Shown here piece after piece: positions 36,567 to 41,999 of a DNA stretch of 64,000 nucleotides (its first letter is position 1; each line of letters opens with the position of its first letter). Made by a program: the position numbers and the translations under genes. Origin of the DNA: Nitrosospira briensis (GTDB lineage Bacteria; Pseudomonadota; Gammaproteobacteria; Burkholderiales; Nitrosomonadaceae); NCBI RefSeq assembly GCF_900115125.1, contig NZ_FOVJ01000002.1:496001-560000 (forward strand), given 5' to 3'. The notes beneath the pieces are model-generated. The model worked only from the letters and a program-made list of their open reading frames with translations, did no database searches and had not been told where the DNA came from.

Positions 36567-36907
36567 TTCAAGCTCCTATGGTTGCGAGGGTAGAAAAAAT
36601 ATCGTTTCGGGTGACTCATATCGGTGCTGTTTTTCCGAAATAGGTCCCGTGAAGCCAGAGGCGACCGGCTTTCGCTGATTTTCCCGTCGACGTACTTGCA
36701 GAGACGATACGTATAGGCTTCGATAGTATCGGTGCGCTAACGCACCATAGGATCGCATTGCTGCGGATTGCCAAATTCAGGCATTAGAGCCATAAAGTAA
36801 AAACAAGGGTCAAGAAAATGGGAAGCGGAGCCAGCCTGTATTTTCCTTGCATTAACCCCTTCCTTGTAAGCAGGCAAATGCATCCGCTTCCAATAATGTC
36901 CAGAATG
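36567..36907. other. Gap with small hairpin
   Basis: About 340 bases without a supported gene. It contains the hairpin at 36731-36746 and would hold the promoter of the small exported protein, which was not identified. Confidence 0.35.
36731..36746. repeat. Perfect 6-bp hairpin, REP-like
   Basis: GGTGCG and CGCACC around a CTAA loop. Short palindromes of this kind (GGTGCG-N4-CGCACC) recur between genes in many proteobacteria. No T-tract follows, so a terminator role is unlikely. Confidence 0.5.
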
Positions 36908-37915
36908 CTAAGGGTGTCCTTCCCCGCCCGAGGCACCGTACACTTGTCCGGTTACGTAGCTCGATTCCTGTGATGCTAGGAACACATACAATGGACCCAA
37001 TTCCGCCGGTTGTCCGGGCCGGCCAAGGGGCATATCCCTGCCGAACCTGCTAAGGTCAGGCCATCCAGTGGTTTGCAATGGTGTCCAGAATGGTCCCGGC
37101 GCCACCGCGTTTACCCGTATACCCTGCCGGGCTACCTGCCTTGCCAGCGATTTTGTGAAGGCGATGTTGCACGCCTTCGTCTGCGCGTAGTCGAGAAACC
37201 CCTCCGAAGGAGTGTAAGCCTCAACGGAGCTTGTATTGATAATCGTCGCGCCGGGCTTAAGGTGCGGCATGGCGGCCCTGGTGATCCAGAACGGCGCATA
37301 GACGTTGCATTTGAATACCGAGTCGAACTGCTCTGTCGTGAGATCAACGATCGAGAGCTGCCCGGCTGCCATGGCGGCATTGTTGACAAGGATGTCCAGC
37401 CCGCCCAGCTCGCGGACGGCGTCGGCGACGAGCCGGGAGCAAAAATCCTCGTTCCGGATGTCGCCAGGGATCGCAACGGCCTTTCGCCCTTCCGCCCGTA
37501 TCAGTTCCACGACCTCCCGAGCGTCGGGCTCCTCGACCGGGAGATAGTTGATCGCGACATCGGCACCCTCGCGCGCAAAGGCGATGACGGCGGCGCGGCC
37601 AATCCCGGAATCGCCGCCGGTCACGAGCGCTTTTCTGCCCACCAGCCTGCCCGAACCTTTGTAGCTTGTTTCGCCATGATCGGGTCGCGGTACCATCTTG
37701 CTCGCAAGGCCGGGCGGCTCCTGTTTTTGCTGCGGGAAGGGGGGAGCTGGATATTGCGTTGTCGGGTCCTGTTTACGGGACTGGCTGAGCCCTTGCAGTG
37801 AACCCTGCTGCCCTTGCTGACCGAAAGCAGGGGAAACGAATGCCGTAGCAAGGCCGGCAGTCATACCACCAACAAATTGGCGCCTGGAGGCGCTCGCGTC
37901 GTCTTCTGGTTTCAT
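36908..37915 (-). CDS. Tat-exported SDR oxidoreductase (YghA/GSP39-like)
   Basis: A 335-residue short-chain dehydrogenase. The NAD(P) motif is TGGDSGIGRAAVI, with NNAAMAAGQ and the catalytic set Ser in NTSSVEAYTPS and Tyr-x3-Lys in LDYAQTKACN. The N-terminus is a twin-arginine signal (SRRQFVGGMTAGLATAFVSP), followed by a Gln/Pro-rich linker, so export in folded form is predicted. ATG at 37915 has AGGGAGAACAGGT-like sequence upstream and gives the Tat signal a normal position; the open frame extends to 38020 without a better start. Substrate unknown; close relatives include general stress proteins. Confidence 0.88.
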   Translation of the reverse strand: MKPEDDASASRRQFVGGMTAGLATAFVSPAFGQQGQQGSLQGLSQSRKQDPTTQYPAPPFPQQKQEPPGLASKMVPRPDHGETSYKGSGRLVGRKALVTGGDSGIGRAAVIAFAREGADVAINYLPVEEPDAREVVELIRAEGRKAVAIPGDIRNEDFCSRLVADAVRELGGLDILVNNAAMAAGQLSIVDLTTEQFDSVFKCNVYAPFWITRAAMPHLKPGATIINTSSVEAYTPSEGFLDYAQTKACNIAFTKSLARQVARQGIRVNAVAPGPFWTPLQTTGWPDLSRFGRDMPLGRPGQPAELGPLYVFLASQESSYVTGQVYGASGGEGHP

Positions 37916-38280
37916 ACCTGTTCTCCCATGAAAGTTGCTGAGGTGGTTTCCGATCAGAAATTCTCGCCAGGGGCGATCAGGCCCAGAAGCTGTCTTCGCG
38001 GTGAACGGCCACAAAGACAAGCAATAATTGTTCGGCCGGGAAATATGATTTCGCGTTTCGCTTATCTCTGCCGTGCGTTAAAGCACATTATAGAGGCAAG
38101 TGTGTAATTGCGGACGAACTGAGCTGACGCAGTTTTCCCGACGGTTTAATTTGGAATCTCGCTGCTCGTTGTTCAGATGCTACCGGTCTGACAGATACCC
38201 AATGTTTGAGGGATCGGTGGCGATAATTGACAGCTCGATAGCTCAAGACCGCAGCCATTGGCGCTTTCCTAATTTAAGAG

Positions 38281-38357
38281 GTCTGCATAATGAACGAGTT
38301 CGTTTTTCAAGTTGGAAAAGAAGCTCTCAGTCGCTGCATCGCCCTAGGCGTCGCCGA
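38281..38357 (-). pseudogene. IS3-family transposase relic
   Basis: Read on the minus strand in one frame this gives GDAATESFFSNLKNELVHYA, the well-known segment around the catalytic Glu of IS3-family OrfB (consensus like DNAAMESFFSSLKNE-VH). The frame has stop codons just before (at the GDA-stop-GDA junction) and soon after, so only about 25 codons survive. No inverted-repeat ends were seen. It shows past insertion and loss next to the kinase island. Confidence 0.8.
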
Positions 38358-38462
38358 GTTAGGTAAGCGCGACACCGGAGCCTTTGTGCGCGAGATGCTT
38401 AATGATCGCCCCGCTGATACAGGGGCTCACCTCTGATAACTAACACGTTGAATACACGTCGC

Positions 38463-39563
38463 TTACTGGTCGCTACTAGTCGGCCGAAGGGGTAAAATAG
38501 GATGTGCACGACCATTACCTCCACCGGCATGAAAACAACAAGAGACTCGCCTACCAACTTTGATAAGATTAGGAGCACCATAAAAACTATCTTGGTGGAA
38601 AAAATAATCATCCATTCCTGCGTTTAAAAACCCCCAAGCATGCCCTTTTGGCCTCCAACTTGAGATGTTTGCAATAATGCGAGGCTGAATATCAAATGAT
38701 AAGTTTGAAAACCATTCCACAAGAGTAGGCGCCGTCGGTCGATCTAAAGGGGCTTTGGACATGCACTTAACCGCAATATCCCAAATCTCGTTACCGAGAG
38801 CACGATACTGGATGAACTGATCAATGAGTTGCGGCTTATCAGGGATCTTGGCTGCATAGATTCGTGGAACAGCCGACAGCCCAGTTCCGAAAGGATACTC
38901 ACCAGTTAAAAGCCTATAAAGGATGGCCCCAAAGGCCCAAATATCGACTGGCTTATCAGTAAGTTTAGGTGTTTCGATCATCTCCGGGGCCATGTATGGT
39001 AAGGCCCCTACGATAGTTGATGAACCTGCTGTACCTAAAGACTCGTTGTTATAGACCGCATCGTCTAATTGTTGCTCCACTAGACGCGCAATACCGAAAT
39101 CAGTAACTTTAAATGTGTAAGAGCCATCTTTCACCTCAGCGATTATATTACTCGGCTTCAAATCACGATGAACAACATTAACATGGTGCGATGCCATCAA
39201 TGCTTTGCTGAAATGGTGACCGAATTGAGCGACAAGATGGGGATCAAAATATAAATACTCCCGTTCAAGGAGTGATTCTATATTGCTGCCCTCAACAAGC
39301 TCCTCAATCAATATTTCCACTCCTTCGTCATAAAGATAGTCCAAAGTCTTAGCGACGTTAGGATGATTAATGCGTGCTGCTAGAACAGCGCTTCTCTTAA
39401 AACGTTTTGCACCGGAGCTGGTGAACGGTGACTTAAGAGCTACATTGCGATTCAGCAGGTGGTCTCGGGCAACATAAACTTCTTGCATACCCCCTGCATC
39501 AAGAAACGAGATGACTTCATACCTTTCGGAGAACCTCTGTCCAGCACTAAAAAGCTTACTCAC
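38463..39563 (-). CDS. Atypical Ser/Thr protein kinase fused to a cold-shock-like domain
   Basis: A 366-residue Hanks-type kinase. Seen: VALK (Lys44), catalytic loop HRDLKPSN (132-139), DFG (155-157), APE (192-194) and VDIWAFG. The glycine loop is degenerate (LDAGGMQEVYV rather than LGxGGMGEVY), and the alpha-C Glu expected in the RFKR-x-A helix is Ser58. Residues about 303-358 form a C-terminal cold-shock-like unit: KGHAWGFLNAGMDDYFFHQD then VGRRVSCCFHAGGGNGRAHP. That fold binds nucleic acid in other proteins. It overlaps the second kinase gene by 4 bases and is the last gene of the operon. The fusion suggests a kinase that senses or acts on nucleic acid, which is an inference. Confidence 0.88.
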   Translation of the reverse strand: MSKLFSAGQRFSERYEVISFLDAGGMQEVYVARDHLLNRNVALKSPFTSSGAKRFKRSAVLAARINHPNVAKTLDYLYDEGVEILIEELVEGSNIESLLEREYLYFDPHLVAQFGHHFSKALMASHHVNVVHRDLKPSNIIAEVKDGSYTFKVTDFGIARLVEQQLDDAVYNNESLGTAGSSTIVGALPYMAPEMIETPKLTDKPVDIWAFGAILYRLLTGEYPFGTGLSAVPRIYAAKIPDKPQLIDQFIQYRALGNEIWDIAVKCMSKAPLDRPTAPTLVEWFSNLSFDIQPRIIANISSWRPKGHAWGFLNAGMDDYFFHQDSFYGAPNLIKVGRRVSCCFHAGGGNGRAHPILPLRPTSSDQ

Positions 39564-40612
39564 ACAAGGACCTCCGGATGACTAACATCGAATGTTACAA
39601 AACGTCTAGAACCTGACGCGCCTAAGACAATGACATATGATCCATCAAGAATATCACCAACCGCCGCGGGTCGATTATTGATAAAGATATCTCCGTAAAT
39701 TTGCGAAAATTTAAAATCATAGCCATCGTAGATTATTTCGATGGAATCGAAGGTGCCGCGAGCAGCCTTGATTCTTGGATTATTACGATCCAATATCAGT
39801 ATATTTGTACCGTCGGCTACTAGGGCGCGGTGACGATTAACGAGAAGCTCTCGCTTCAACGCTTTCGCAATGGTATCTAAGTCTGGGCGAACCGGAGGCG
39901 CGAGATCGAGGCATGCATCTATCAGTTGCGCAACAGTAGACGCTACAGCAACATGGTTTGATATCGTTGCTCCAACTGGAAGCGGATGAGGTGGGGCAAG
40001 GCCATTAGCAGTAGGAGGAAGTGCTCCGGTTGCGAGAAAGAAAGCTGTGGCGCCGAACGCATATGCATCAACCGGCTTATCAATTATTGGTGTCGTCGAA
40101 AAAAGTTCTGGGGCCATGAATCCCGGAGTACCTGTCAAAACTGCGGTGGTTTTTGGAAGTGGCCCAATTTTGGCGAGACCAAAGTCAAATATCTTTATAG
40201 CGCCATCTTGATCGCGCTTTATGTTATTTGGTTTTAAGTCTCGATGCACTATGCCGCATGAATGGATATCCCGAACTCCACAAGCTACTTGATATAGTAC
40301 ATAATAGTAATCTAAGACTTGGAAACCTGAGCTGTAAAACTGCATAAGATCATCGTTCGGAAGAAACTCCTCCACTAGCGCAAAATCATTATTGTCATTG
40401 ATAATGATCATGTCATATATCTGAACAACGTGCCGAGATTTTATCTTTTGAAGTGCGGTGATTTCATCGATTAAGCGCGGCATTTCGGTTTTTTCAGTAA
40501 TCATTTTGATGACGACATCCCGCATTAGATGCTGGTCATCGCAGATGAAAGTAGTCCCAAAGCCACCGCTGATGGGATCCTGCTTTACAACATATCGAGG
40601 AGGAAACTTCAT
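39560..40612 (-). CDS. Ser/Thr protein kinase with C-terminal FHA-like region
   Basis: A 350-residue Hanks-type kinase with all core residues: glycine-loop GGFGTTF, Lys36 (VVIKM), alpha-C Glu50, HRDLKPNN (123-130), DFG (143-145), APE (167-169). It is therefore likely the active kinase of the pair. After residue 258 a beta-rich 90-residue tail follows (DIFINNRPAAVGDILDGSYV, then FVTFDVSHPEV), which has the rhythm of the C-terminal half of an FHA domain but lacks a clear SRxH signature. It overlaps both neighbours by 4 bases (ATGA-type junctions), so the three products are probably made together. Confidence 0.88.
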   Translation of the reverse strand: MKFPPRYVVKQDPISGGFGTTFICDDQHLMRDVVIKMITEKTEMPRLIDEITALQKIKSRHVVQIYDMIIINDNNDFALVEEFLPNDDLMQFYSSGFQVLDYYYVLYQVACGVRDIHSCGIVHRDLKPNNIKRDQDGAIKIFDFGLAKIGPLPKTTAVLTGTPGFMAPELFSTTPIIDKPVDAYAFGATAFFLATGALPPTANGLAPPHPLPVGATISNHVAVASTVAQLIDACLDLAPPVRPDLDTIAKALKRELLVNRHRALVADGTNILILDRNNPRIKAARGTFDSIEIIYDGYDFKFSQIYGDIFINNRPAAVGDILDGSYVIVLGASGSRRFVTFDVSHPEVLV

Positions 40613-41787
40613 TCTTTTTCGGGAATAAACTGCAGGACCAAAGTATTAGCTTGCCTGTCATCTTTTTTGACTGTTGTTTTTTTGCTTCTCTTGTTTCTGG
40701 GCATATTAGTGCTGATATTAGATCGGGATTTTCGAGAAACCTTCTCAGCAATTTTGGTCGTTCTGACCCGCTCCGGCGGCGACCCAGATGTTGACCCTAA
40801 AGCTGAGTTATTAGCAGTTGACTTGGGCCGTTCGGCGTAAGTAACATTTTTTGGCACAAAGATAACGAGGGTCTCGCCAAATGCGGTTAGCGTTAGACAG
40901 GAACTTGCACCATTACGGCCAATGTCTGCAAAATTGGGATGGCATGGGTAAATAGCAATTGACGCATTGTCATCGCCACCAAGCCATTCAGCCATGGTCA
41001 TGACTCGATGAGCCAATTCTCTTGTCTCGAGTTTCTGTTTGAACAAGATCTCAAGAACTTCTTGACCGATAAAGTAGGCGCCATCGGTCATCAGAGCTAG
41101 TCGCGCGTCACTCGTCATCATGTCGTATGATGGCAGAGTGATAACATGAGGTTCGATGCCATCACCCATGCCGATAAATTGTGAGAGTCGATTATCCACC
41201 GAGTCTGGGTAACGCCACGGCTCCAACCGCTTGCTAGATGTCGCGAGAGACGCTGATACGGTGTCATCTTTAGTTAATTGCAATAAACCTTCATCAGAAT
41301 TTAAATAAATTCGACTATCGCCCACACTCAAACCTGCAGCGCCCTGCTTACCAAAAAGCACGGCACAAATGGTCGTTCCGCCCCGTGCCTGGTATCGCTT
41401 ATAAACCGTCTCATTAGAAAACCGCGCCGCTTCTAATAGAAGGCTTTTGATGCCTCGAGTACAGTCGCCGAAACTTAGATAGATTGCAAATGATGCTAAT
41501 GCCAGAGATGCTGAACTACCGCCGGCAGCCATCCCGCCAATGCCATCTAACAGGACAATAGCCTTCACATCGGCACCGTTTGATGCTTGGTTCTGAACAT
41601 CTATCAAAGCTATACGATCTTGATTTTCTGAACGCACCGCACCACTTGATGTAGCGATAACCGCGGCGCCATCAAAGAAAATATCGTTCTTTTTTCCCGC
41701 TCGCGCCTCAAGCCAGGAGAAAGCGGTCGATATATACTCCTGGAGTTCTGTACTCATTGGGTCTACACCAGCTTCGCTTTTTCTCAT
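40609..41787 (-). CDS. PP2C-family Ser/Thr protein phosphatase
   Basis: A 392-residue phosphatase of the PPM family. All metal-site motifs are present: RSENQD (52-57), LLDGIGGMAAGG (79-90), GGTT (136-139), GDSRIY (156-161), LMTDG, and GGDDNASI. After about residue 300 there is a Ser/Lys/Arg-rich low-complexity tail (KIAEKVSRKSRSNISTNMPR). It is the first gene of the operon, followed by two kinases; it would reverse their phosphorylation. ATG at 41787 has no clear Shine-Dalgarno; an internal ATG (41757) is possible. The region is AT-rich compared with ubiD next door. Confidence 0.9.
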   Translation of the reverse strand: MRKSEAGVDPMSTELQEYISTAFSWLEARAGKKNDIFFDGAAVIATSSGAVRSENQDRIALIDVQNQASNGADVKAIVLLDGIGGMAAGGSSASLALASFAIYLSFGDCTRGIKSLLLEAARFSNETVYKRYQARGGTTICAVLFGKQGAAGLSVGDSRIYLNSDEGLLQLTKDDTVSASLATSSKRLEPWRYPDSVDNRLSQFIGMGDGIEPHVITLPSYDMMTSDARLALMTDGAYFIGQEVLEILFKQKLETRELAHRVMTMAEWLGGDDNASIAIYPCHPNFADIGRNGASSCLTLTAFGETLVIFVPKNVTYAERPKSTANNSALGSTSGSPPERVRTTKIAEKVSRKSRSNISTNMPRNKRSKKTTVKKDDRQANTLVLQFIPEKE

Positions 41788-41833
41788 CTAAAATAACCAT
41801 CTTTCTTTGATTGCTGCGTCGACAATACAGACC

Positions 41834-41852
41834 GCTTTATCCCCGATAAAGC
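41834..41852. promoter_or_regulatory. Perfect 8-bp hairpin upstream of the PP2C-kinase operon
   Basis: GCTTTATC and GATAAAGC around a CCC loop, 47 bases upstream of the phosphatase start, in a 212-base gap after ubiD. There is no T-tract, so it may be an operator or leader hairpin rather than a terminator. Role inferred from position only. Confidence 0.5.
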
Positions 41853-41999
41853 AACATACTCTTAACTTGGCTTAAACGTAAGGAAGTTAAAGTAAAAGGT
41901 GAACTTCGATACCATATTTCTCTTAGTCTAACCGACCAATATCTCTCAGGCGGCTTTTCAGCGGGTCGAAGTTCAATCCGATAAAAAGCGGAATCCCAG

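Follow-up and report, generated by a model that had tools for sequence, protein, structure and literature searches.

A foreign phosphatase-kinase-kinase operon beside ubiD in Nitrosospira briensis, very probably a divergent chromosomal KKP module

A 64,000-nucleotide stretch of the Nitrosospira briensis genome (contig NZ_FOVJ01000002.1, positions 496,001 to 560,000; hereafter the window) contains three genes on the minus strand that are read from 41787 to 38463 in the order PP2C-type phosphatase, Ser/Thr kinase 1 and Ser/Thr kinase 2 (Table 1). According to the list of open reading frames (ORFs), each gene overlaps the next by 4 bases, at 40609-40612 between the phosphatase and kinase 1 and at 39560-39563 between the two kinases. 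Pfam places PP2C_2 in the first product (E 1.2e-5) and Pkinase in the other two (E 3.6e-38 for kinase 1 and 6.8e-38 for kinase 2), which agrees with the gene content given in the original prediction made from the sequence alone. That prediction took the operon for an undescribed signalling or defence system, while we argue here that it is very probably a divergent chromosomal member of an already known system, the kinase-kinase-phosphatase (KKP) module. Promoter-like sites (6 versus 6.8 expected) were not above chance, and terminator-like sites (8 versus 3.8 expected, standard deviation 2.2) were somewhat above it. The names ubiD, ubiA, hpnN and SDR for other genes in the window were assigned by reading the sequences.

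Table 1. Coordinates in the window of the operon genes and of the surrounding insert
Feature	Position	Strand	Remarks
PP2C-type phosphatase, PfpC-like	40609..41787	minus	392 amino acids, ATG start, 1179 bp
Ser/Thr kinase 1, PfkB-like	39560..40612	minus	350 amino acids, ATG start, 1053 bp
Ser/Thr kinase 2, PfkA-like	38463..39563	minus	366 amino acids, GTG start, 1101 bp
Stretch without counterpart in the closest syntenic relative	36812..41997		Contains the operon together with a G+C-rich SDR gene (36908-38020)

The catalytic parts of all three proteins appear intact. The phosphatase has a catalytic core at about residues 44-278, followed by a lysine-rich tail and a short hydrophobic end, and matches the NCBIfam Stp1 model with E 7.7e-26, below the cut-off of that model. 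Its residues D56, D80-G81, D234 and D272 are conserved in all 16 of the aligned KKP phosphatases, and we take D56, D80, D234 and D272 to be metal-binding. Kinase 1 consists of a kinase domain (about residues 5-250) and a beta-rich C-terminal domain (about 258-349), kinase 2 of a kinase domain (about 12-285) and a C-terminal cold-shock domain (CSD) of the OB-fold type (about 293-360). One of the kinases had been described as atypical, a view we do not share since both retain the Gly-Gly loop, the catalytic Lys, HRD...N and DFG, as do all 16 aligned members for each kinase. The motifs of kinase 2 are GGM, HRD and DFG, as in KKP, and those of kinase 1 are GGF, HRD and DFG, the glycine loop of the latter being GGF in 8, GGM in 6, GGL in 1 and GGQ in 1 of the 16 members. 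A basic and badly alignable tail is a recurrent feature of KKP-type phosphatases (40609-40850 in the window), with a QLxIxF-like short hydrophobic end in many members; the tail possibly serves in docking or in binding nucleic acids.

Searches of plasmids with kinase 1 and the phosphatase recovered the triad on 6 records from Agrobacterium, Rhizobium, Xanthobacter, Pantoea and E. coli, with identities of 34-41% for kinase 1. Scans gave 4 genome loci as well as 8, 14 and 80 viral loci. The genome contigs were scanned with one short pattern of the kinase 1 C-terminus, from which 4 loci were confirmed out of 12 matched stretches, so that this number is a lower bound; 12 of the 80 viral loci align with kinase 1 over almost its full length at E <=3e-62, the next match being at E 7e-15. 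The order PP2C-kinase 1-kinase 2 was observed in 33 of 35 loci, corresponding to 28 of 30 distinct records with the window included, which is the conserved synteny that the original prediction had proposed to look for. The loci were found via a kinase, except for the window and for L084, which a nucleotide search with the triad had turned up, and the partner genes are thus the independent part of this count. Several of the records are nearly identical to one another, such as L036 and L041, or L037, L048 and L084. The two exceptions to the order are L056, which is cut by a contig end, and L087 from the Planktothrix phage PaV-LD, in which kinase 2 is lacking. In L087 (4838-6807), a KKP-type phosphatase is accompanied by a kinase 1 without the C-terminal domain, and kinase 2 is missing from the part that was read; this might represent a variant of two genes, or else an antidote to a host KKP that the phage carries. 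Four of the 30 records (L037, L042, L045 and L090) have a triad gene broken across two frames, in two cases the phosphatase, and in NZ_CP083887 (L037) the broken phosphatase is located next to intact kinase genes.

The triads occur on plasmids, in P2-like prophages and on viral contigs, and no fixed fourth gene was seen across the 11 triad flanks read. The Xanthobacter triad carries an IS5-type transposase gene between the phosphatase and kinase 1. Three of the six plasmid records have an annotated ABC-three-component system or a Shedu-domain protein as neighbours, which we take to be defence genes. Among E. coli genomes, a close copy was found in 14 of 5426, and the number rose to 18 of 5426 when lower identity was allowed. 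All three chromosomal E. coli copies that were read are located within a P2-like prophage, between the replication and portal genes, an interval that we presume to be the old/tin region of P2, home of defence genes. Other genes occupied this site in all five prophages without the triad that were read, including genes for a DNA adenine methylase and for a DprA-like protein, most of the others being hypothetical. In the kinase 2 tree, the copy from a Klebsiella phage groups with alphaproteobacterial copies (100/100, a group of five rows), as would be expected under horizontal transfer.

The kinases differ in their C-terminal domains, which the original prediction overlooked, and it is above all the domain of kinase 2 that points to KKP. 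Its last 70 residues are modelled as a five-strand domain (predicted local distance difference test score, pLDDT, 87 overall and about 90 in the domain). A family profile of this C-terminus, built from 15 rows including the window, matched CspB in the PDB with E 1.1e-7 over nearly its whole length, and the top match was Unr (E 7.2e-9), covering part of the profile. Pfam detected the CSD in 6 of the 16 members. Judged by family profile and predicted structure, kinase 2 thus ends in a cold-shock domain, as KKP would have it. Kinase 1 ends in a conserved eight-strand domain (model pLDDT 87) at the place where PfkB has an FHA domain. By eye we first took this domain for FHA, an assignment that found no support from Pfam or from a profile search of the PDB. 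In Foldseek searches with both whole kinase models the matches listed were kinases, so that these searches were uninformative on the small C-terminal domains.

To quantify how far the operon departs in composition from its surroundings, we compared it with windows of equal length elsewhere in the 64 kb. The G+C content of the operon is 45.7%, compared with a mean of 53.8% (standard deviation 1.6%) for these windows, which gives a z score of -5.2, and the lowest value among windows outside the operon was 49.4%. The G+C content at third codon positions is 39-43% in the operon genes versus 57-67% in 12 hand-picked genes elsewhere in the window. The 60-base values of 38.3% and 31.7% in the operon and 66.7% in ubiD, from which the operon was originally thought to look foreign, were counted correctly but lie near the tails of the distribution over the whole 64 kb (2.0% of windows are <=0.38, 0.5% are <=0.32 and 2.1% are >=0.67), so that the contrast, although still strong, was overstated. 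A profile search at E 1e-40 did not find kinase 1 in any of the 22 other genomes of the genus, leaving that of the window as the only one among 23. At the same threshold, 2 of 399 genomes in the order had the kinase with its own included, or 1 of 398 others. Across the phylum, 3 of 398 genomes (own included) scored 282-509 bits and the next match 124 bits, which sets these homologues apart from other kinases. A second chromosomal KKP, with the same gene order, is located at 9125-12482 in L222 (G135), where the flanks are housekeeping-like by eye and no prophage was recognisable.

The composition, the absence of kinase 1 from 22 of 22 genus genomes and a net insertion of about 4.5 kb beside ubiD together indicate that the operon is foreign and horizontally acquired, and the original suspicion was right in this respect. 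The gene ubiD was present in 23 of 23 genus genomes, and its flank could be fetched from 17 of the 22 others. One of these (G020; L197) has both flanks in place, with 687 bases between them where the window has 5186; for the remaining 16, the alignment is limited to ubiD or to ubiD plus more distant genes. The ends of the insert showed no direct repeat. An SDR-family gene of about 61% G+C shares the insert with the AT-rich operon, because of which the insert may consist of two segments that came from different sources.

The 3' flank of ubiD (41998 and below in the window; L197-L213) is a variable accessory site in the genus. A survey of 10 proteins beside ubiD, picked by eye among 17 and drawn from 8 of the 17 regions, identified Pfam domains of DNA methylases (L198, L206), GmrSD-type restriction systems (L198 and L212, the latter with HNH), AIPR (L209), FRG (L201), DUF4062 (L204), DUF2806 (L203) and an HSP90-like ATPase (L206), with no Pfam match for the L200 protein. 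Methylase, restriction-type or AIPR domains were present in 4 of the 8 regions of this hand-picked set, for which there was no control set, and this suggests, as a lead only, that the flank is a defence-type insertion site.

Guo et al. (2024, Nat Commun, PMC11341870) describe KKP as a three-part module that is both a toxin-antitoxin and an anti-phage system and is composed of PfpC (PP2C) and the kinases PfkB and PfkA, which carry an FHA and a cold-shock domain, respectively; KKP is mentioned in later papers as well. More than 1200 clusters are reported there, about 90% of them in prophages, and 70 of the 114 outside prophages are linked to mobile elements. The clusters were filtered for genes of 900-1300 bp and for the FHA and CSD organisation; the cold-shock domain is suggested as a possible defining feature, and the GFI/GFA motif of the PfkA CSD is called conserved, yet stands outside the filters given in the Methods. 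Toxicity required both kinases and both C-terminal domains, with the phosphatase as antitoxin. Modules from five hosts were protective against phages, protection by tested KKPs was seen in E. coli and P. aeruginosa, and T4 Gp59 binds the phosphatase and inhibits it modestly (PMC11341870). The string "nitroso" does not occur in the main text of that paper. With the triad thus already named and characterised, a circumstance that the original prediction itself had listed as refuting its claim, the operon is identified and we withdraw the claim of a new system.

We consider it highly probable that the operon is a KKP module of PfpC, PfkB and PfkA, most likely acting as the tested KKPs do. The identification follows from the gene order shared by 28 of 30 records and from the cold-shock domain on kinase 2 as seen by the family profile, and it agrees with the conserved catalytic residues and with a sporadic, horizontally acquired distribution. 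The joint toxicity of the kinases, the antitoxin role of the phosphatase and the trigger by a phage protein would apply here by analogy with the modules of PMC11341870. In a resting cell, the phosphatase would keep both kinases dephosphorylated; an infecting phage would inhibit the phosphatase and so release the kinases, which, active only jointly, would phosphorylate themselves and many host proteins, and the resulting growth arrest would stop phage production. A self-contained phosphorylation switch that is braked by its phosphatase and serves in defence, as the original prediction had it, would accordingly be the best description by analogy, with no need for partners such as TerY or a methylase.

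Several observations weigh against this assignment. The window proteins are distant from the fetched homologues, with identities of 34-46% for both kinases and 24-30% for the phosphatase, and kinase 2 of the window forms a long branch with poorly supported placement in the tree. Pfam did not find the CSD in this kinase at E 1, and its CSD motif is GFL, compared with GFI in 14, GFA in 1 and GFL in 1 of the 16 members; the departure amounts to one conservative residue, so that we keep the operon within KKP. No FHA domain was found in kinase 1 by Pfam in any of the 16 members, in 6 further full-length members or in the isolated domain from the window, and the PDB profile search of the C-terminus likewise gave no FHA match; since only clusters with both FHA and CSD were retained in the published set, the FHA part of that filter is unproven here. 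The insert, though foreign, has no transposase, integrase or recombinase, or phage gene recognised in or near it (ORFs >=150 amino acids, by reading), which bears on the published linkage of KKP to mobile elements and prophages. Finally, the proximity to defence genes that the original prediction had proposed to look for was seen in the three plasmid records mentioned above, with no recognised defence gene beside the triad in the other three.

A bolder version of the KKP reading, which we regard as unlikely, is that of a chromosomal KKP standing by itself, with no tie to prophage control and placed in a genus-specific defence site by ubiD, in which the CSD of kinase 2 would directly sense phage RNA or single-stranded DNA and activate the kinase pair. 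If true, KKP would be triggered by nucleic acid as well as by inhibition of the phosphatase, and such a module would parallel, in bacteria, the logic of PKR, a kinase that senses nucleic acids.

It is likewise unlikely that the main task of this KKP is to control resident prophages or other mobile elements, as is the case for P. aeruginosa Pf6, phage defence then being a secondary function or none at all. KKP was in fact discovered through its control of Pf prophages by way of MvaU phosphorylation (PMC11341870), and the present genome carries a single capsid gene of the HK97 type (PF05065), on a different contig. However, the ORF list places the operon in no recognisable prophage, and the genome has no portal gene of the PF04860 family and no H-NS family protein (PF00816), a model that MvaU-type proteins may escape. 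These were single-family searches that leave room for other prophages or MvaU-like proteins, and a prophage-control role seems less likely here. A decayed and inactive remnant of a KKP is very improbable: the long branch of kinase 2, the altered GFI motif and the split genes in 4 of 30 records speak for it, but the three frames are open and of full length, the overlaps are intact and all catalytic residues that were checked are conserved.

Even less credit can be given to a housekeeping or stress signalling switch, PASTA-kinase/Stp1-like or linked to secretion, that is AT-rich by chance. It would rest on generic hits to the models PknB and Stp1, but these are far below the curated cut-offs (169 of 450 bits and 91 of 230 bits), and the vertical inheritance that it predicts was not seen, kinase 1 being found at E 1e-40 in 0 of 22 genus genomes and 1 of 398 order genomes. 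We find it barely conceivable that the operon belongs to a different kinase-bearing defence system (MADS with the kinase MAD6, PD-T4-6, BREX with PglW, or TerY-P), as the PADLOC mad6 and PD-T4-6 models reach E values as low as 7.8e-49 with these kinases but match them generically, the two unlike kinases each matching 34 models at E up to 1, while the NCBIfam MAD6 scores are 96.2 and 92.8 against 460 bits required and no such partner genes were recognised around the operon by reading the ORFs. The labels mad6, PD-T4-6, PglW and PknB from PADLOC and NCBIfam were rejected for the window kinases as generic kinase similarity. PADLOC 2.0.0 matched the kinases in this generic manner and left the phosphatase unmatched, so that annotation by that library would misname the set.

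As a divergent chromosomal KKP, and the sole one in the 23 genus genomes searched, the operon offers a natural test of whether such a module protects without a partner prophage, and the KKP family makes the ligand of the cold-shock domain a testable question.

Among known systems, the TerY-P triad differs in composition, since the insert holds only the SDR gene besides the three genes here (ORFs >=150 amino acids, by reading; no TerY HMM search was made). The MADS MAD6, PD-T4-6 and BREX PglW kinases share the Ser/Thr kinase domain with those of the window, a generic similarity in which the MAD6 and PglW scores fall under the NCBIfam curated cut-offs, and for which PADLOC gives no such cut-offs. 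Stk2 of Staphylococcus is likewise a case of kinase-driven phage defence according to the discussion in PMC11341870, but is described there as a single host-encoded kinase and is set apart from the operon by this description, not by sequence. Compared with the published KKPs, the operon is unlike them in being chromosomal and outside a recognisable prophage, in having GFL instead of GFI/GFA and an unconfirmed FHA in kinase 1, and in that no H-NS family protein was found in its host with one model (PF00816); as far as we know, the tested KKP proteins were not in the comparison set. It resembles them in gene order and strand, in gene lengths that all fall within 900-1300 bp, in kinases with differing C-termini of which the last carries the cold-shock domain, in the catalytic motifs, in horizontal mobility and in having homologues in P2-like prophages.

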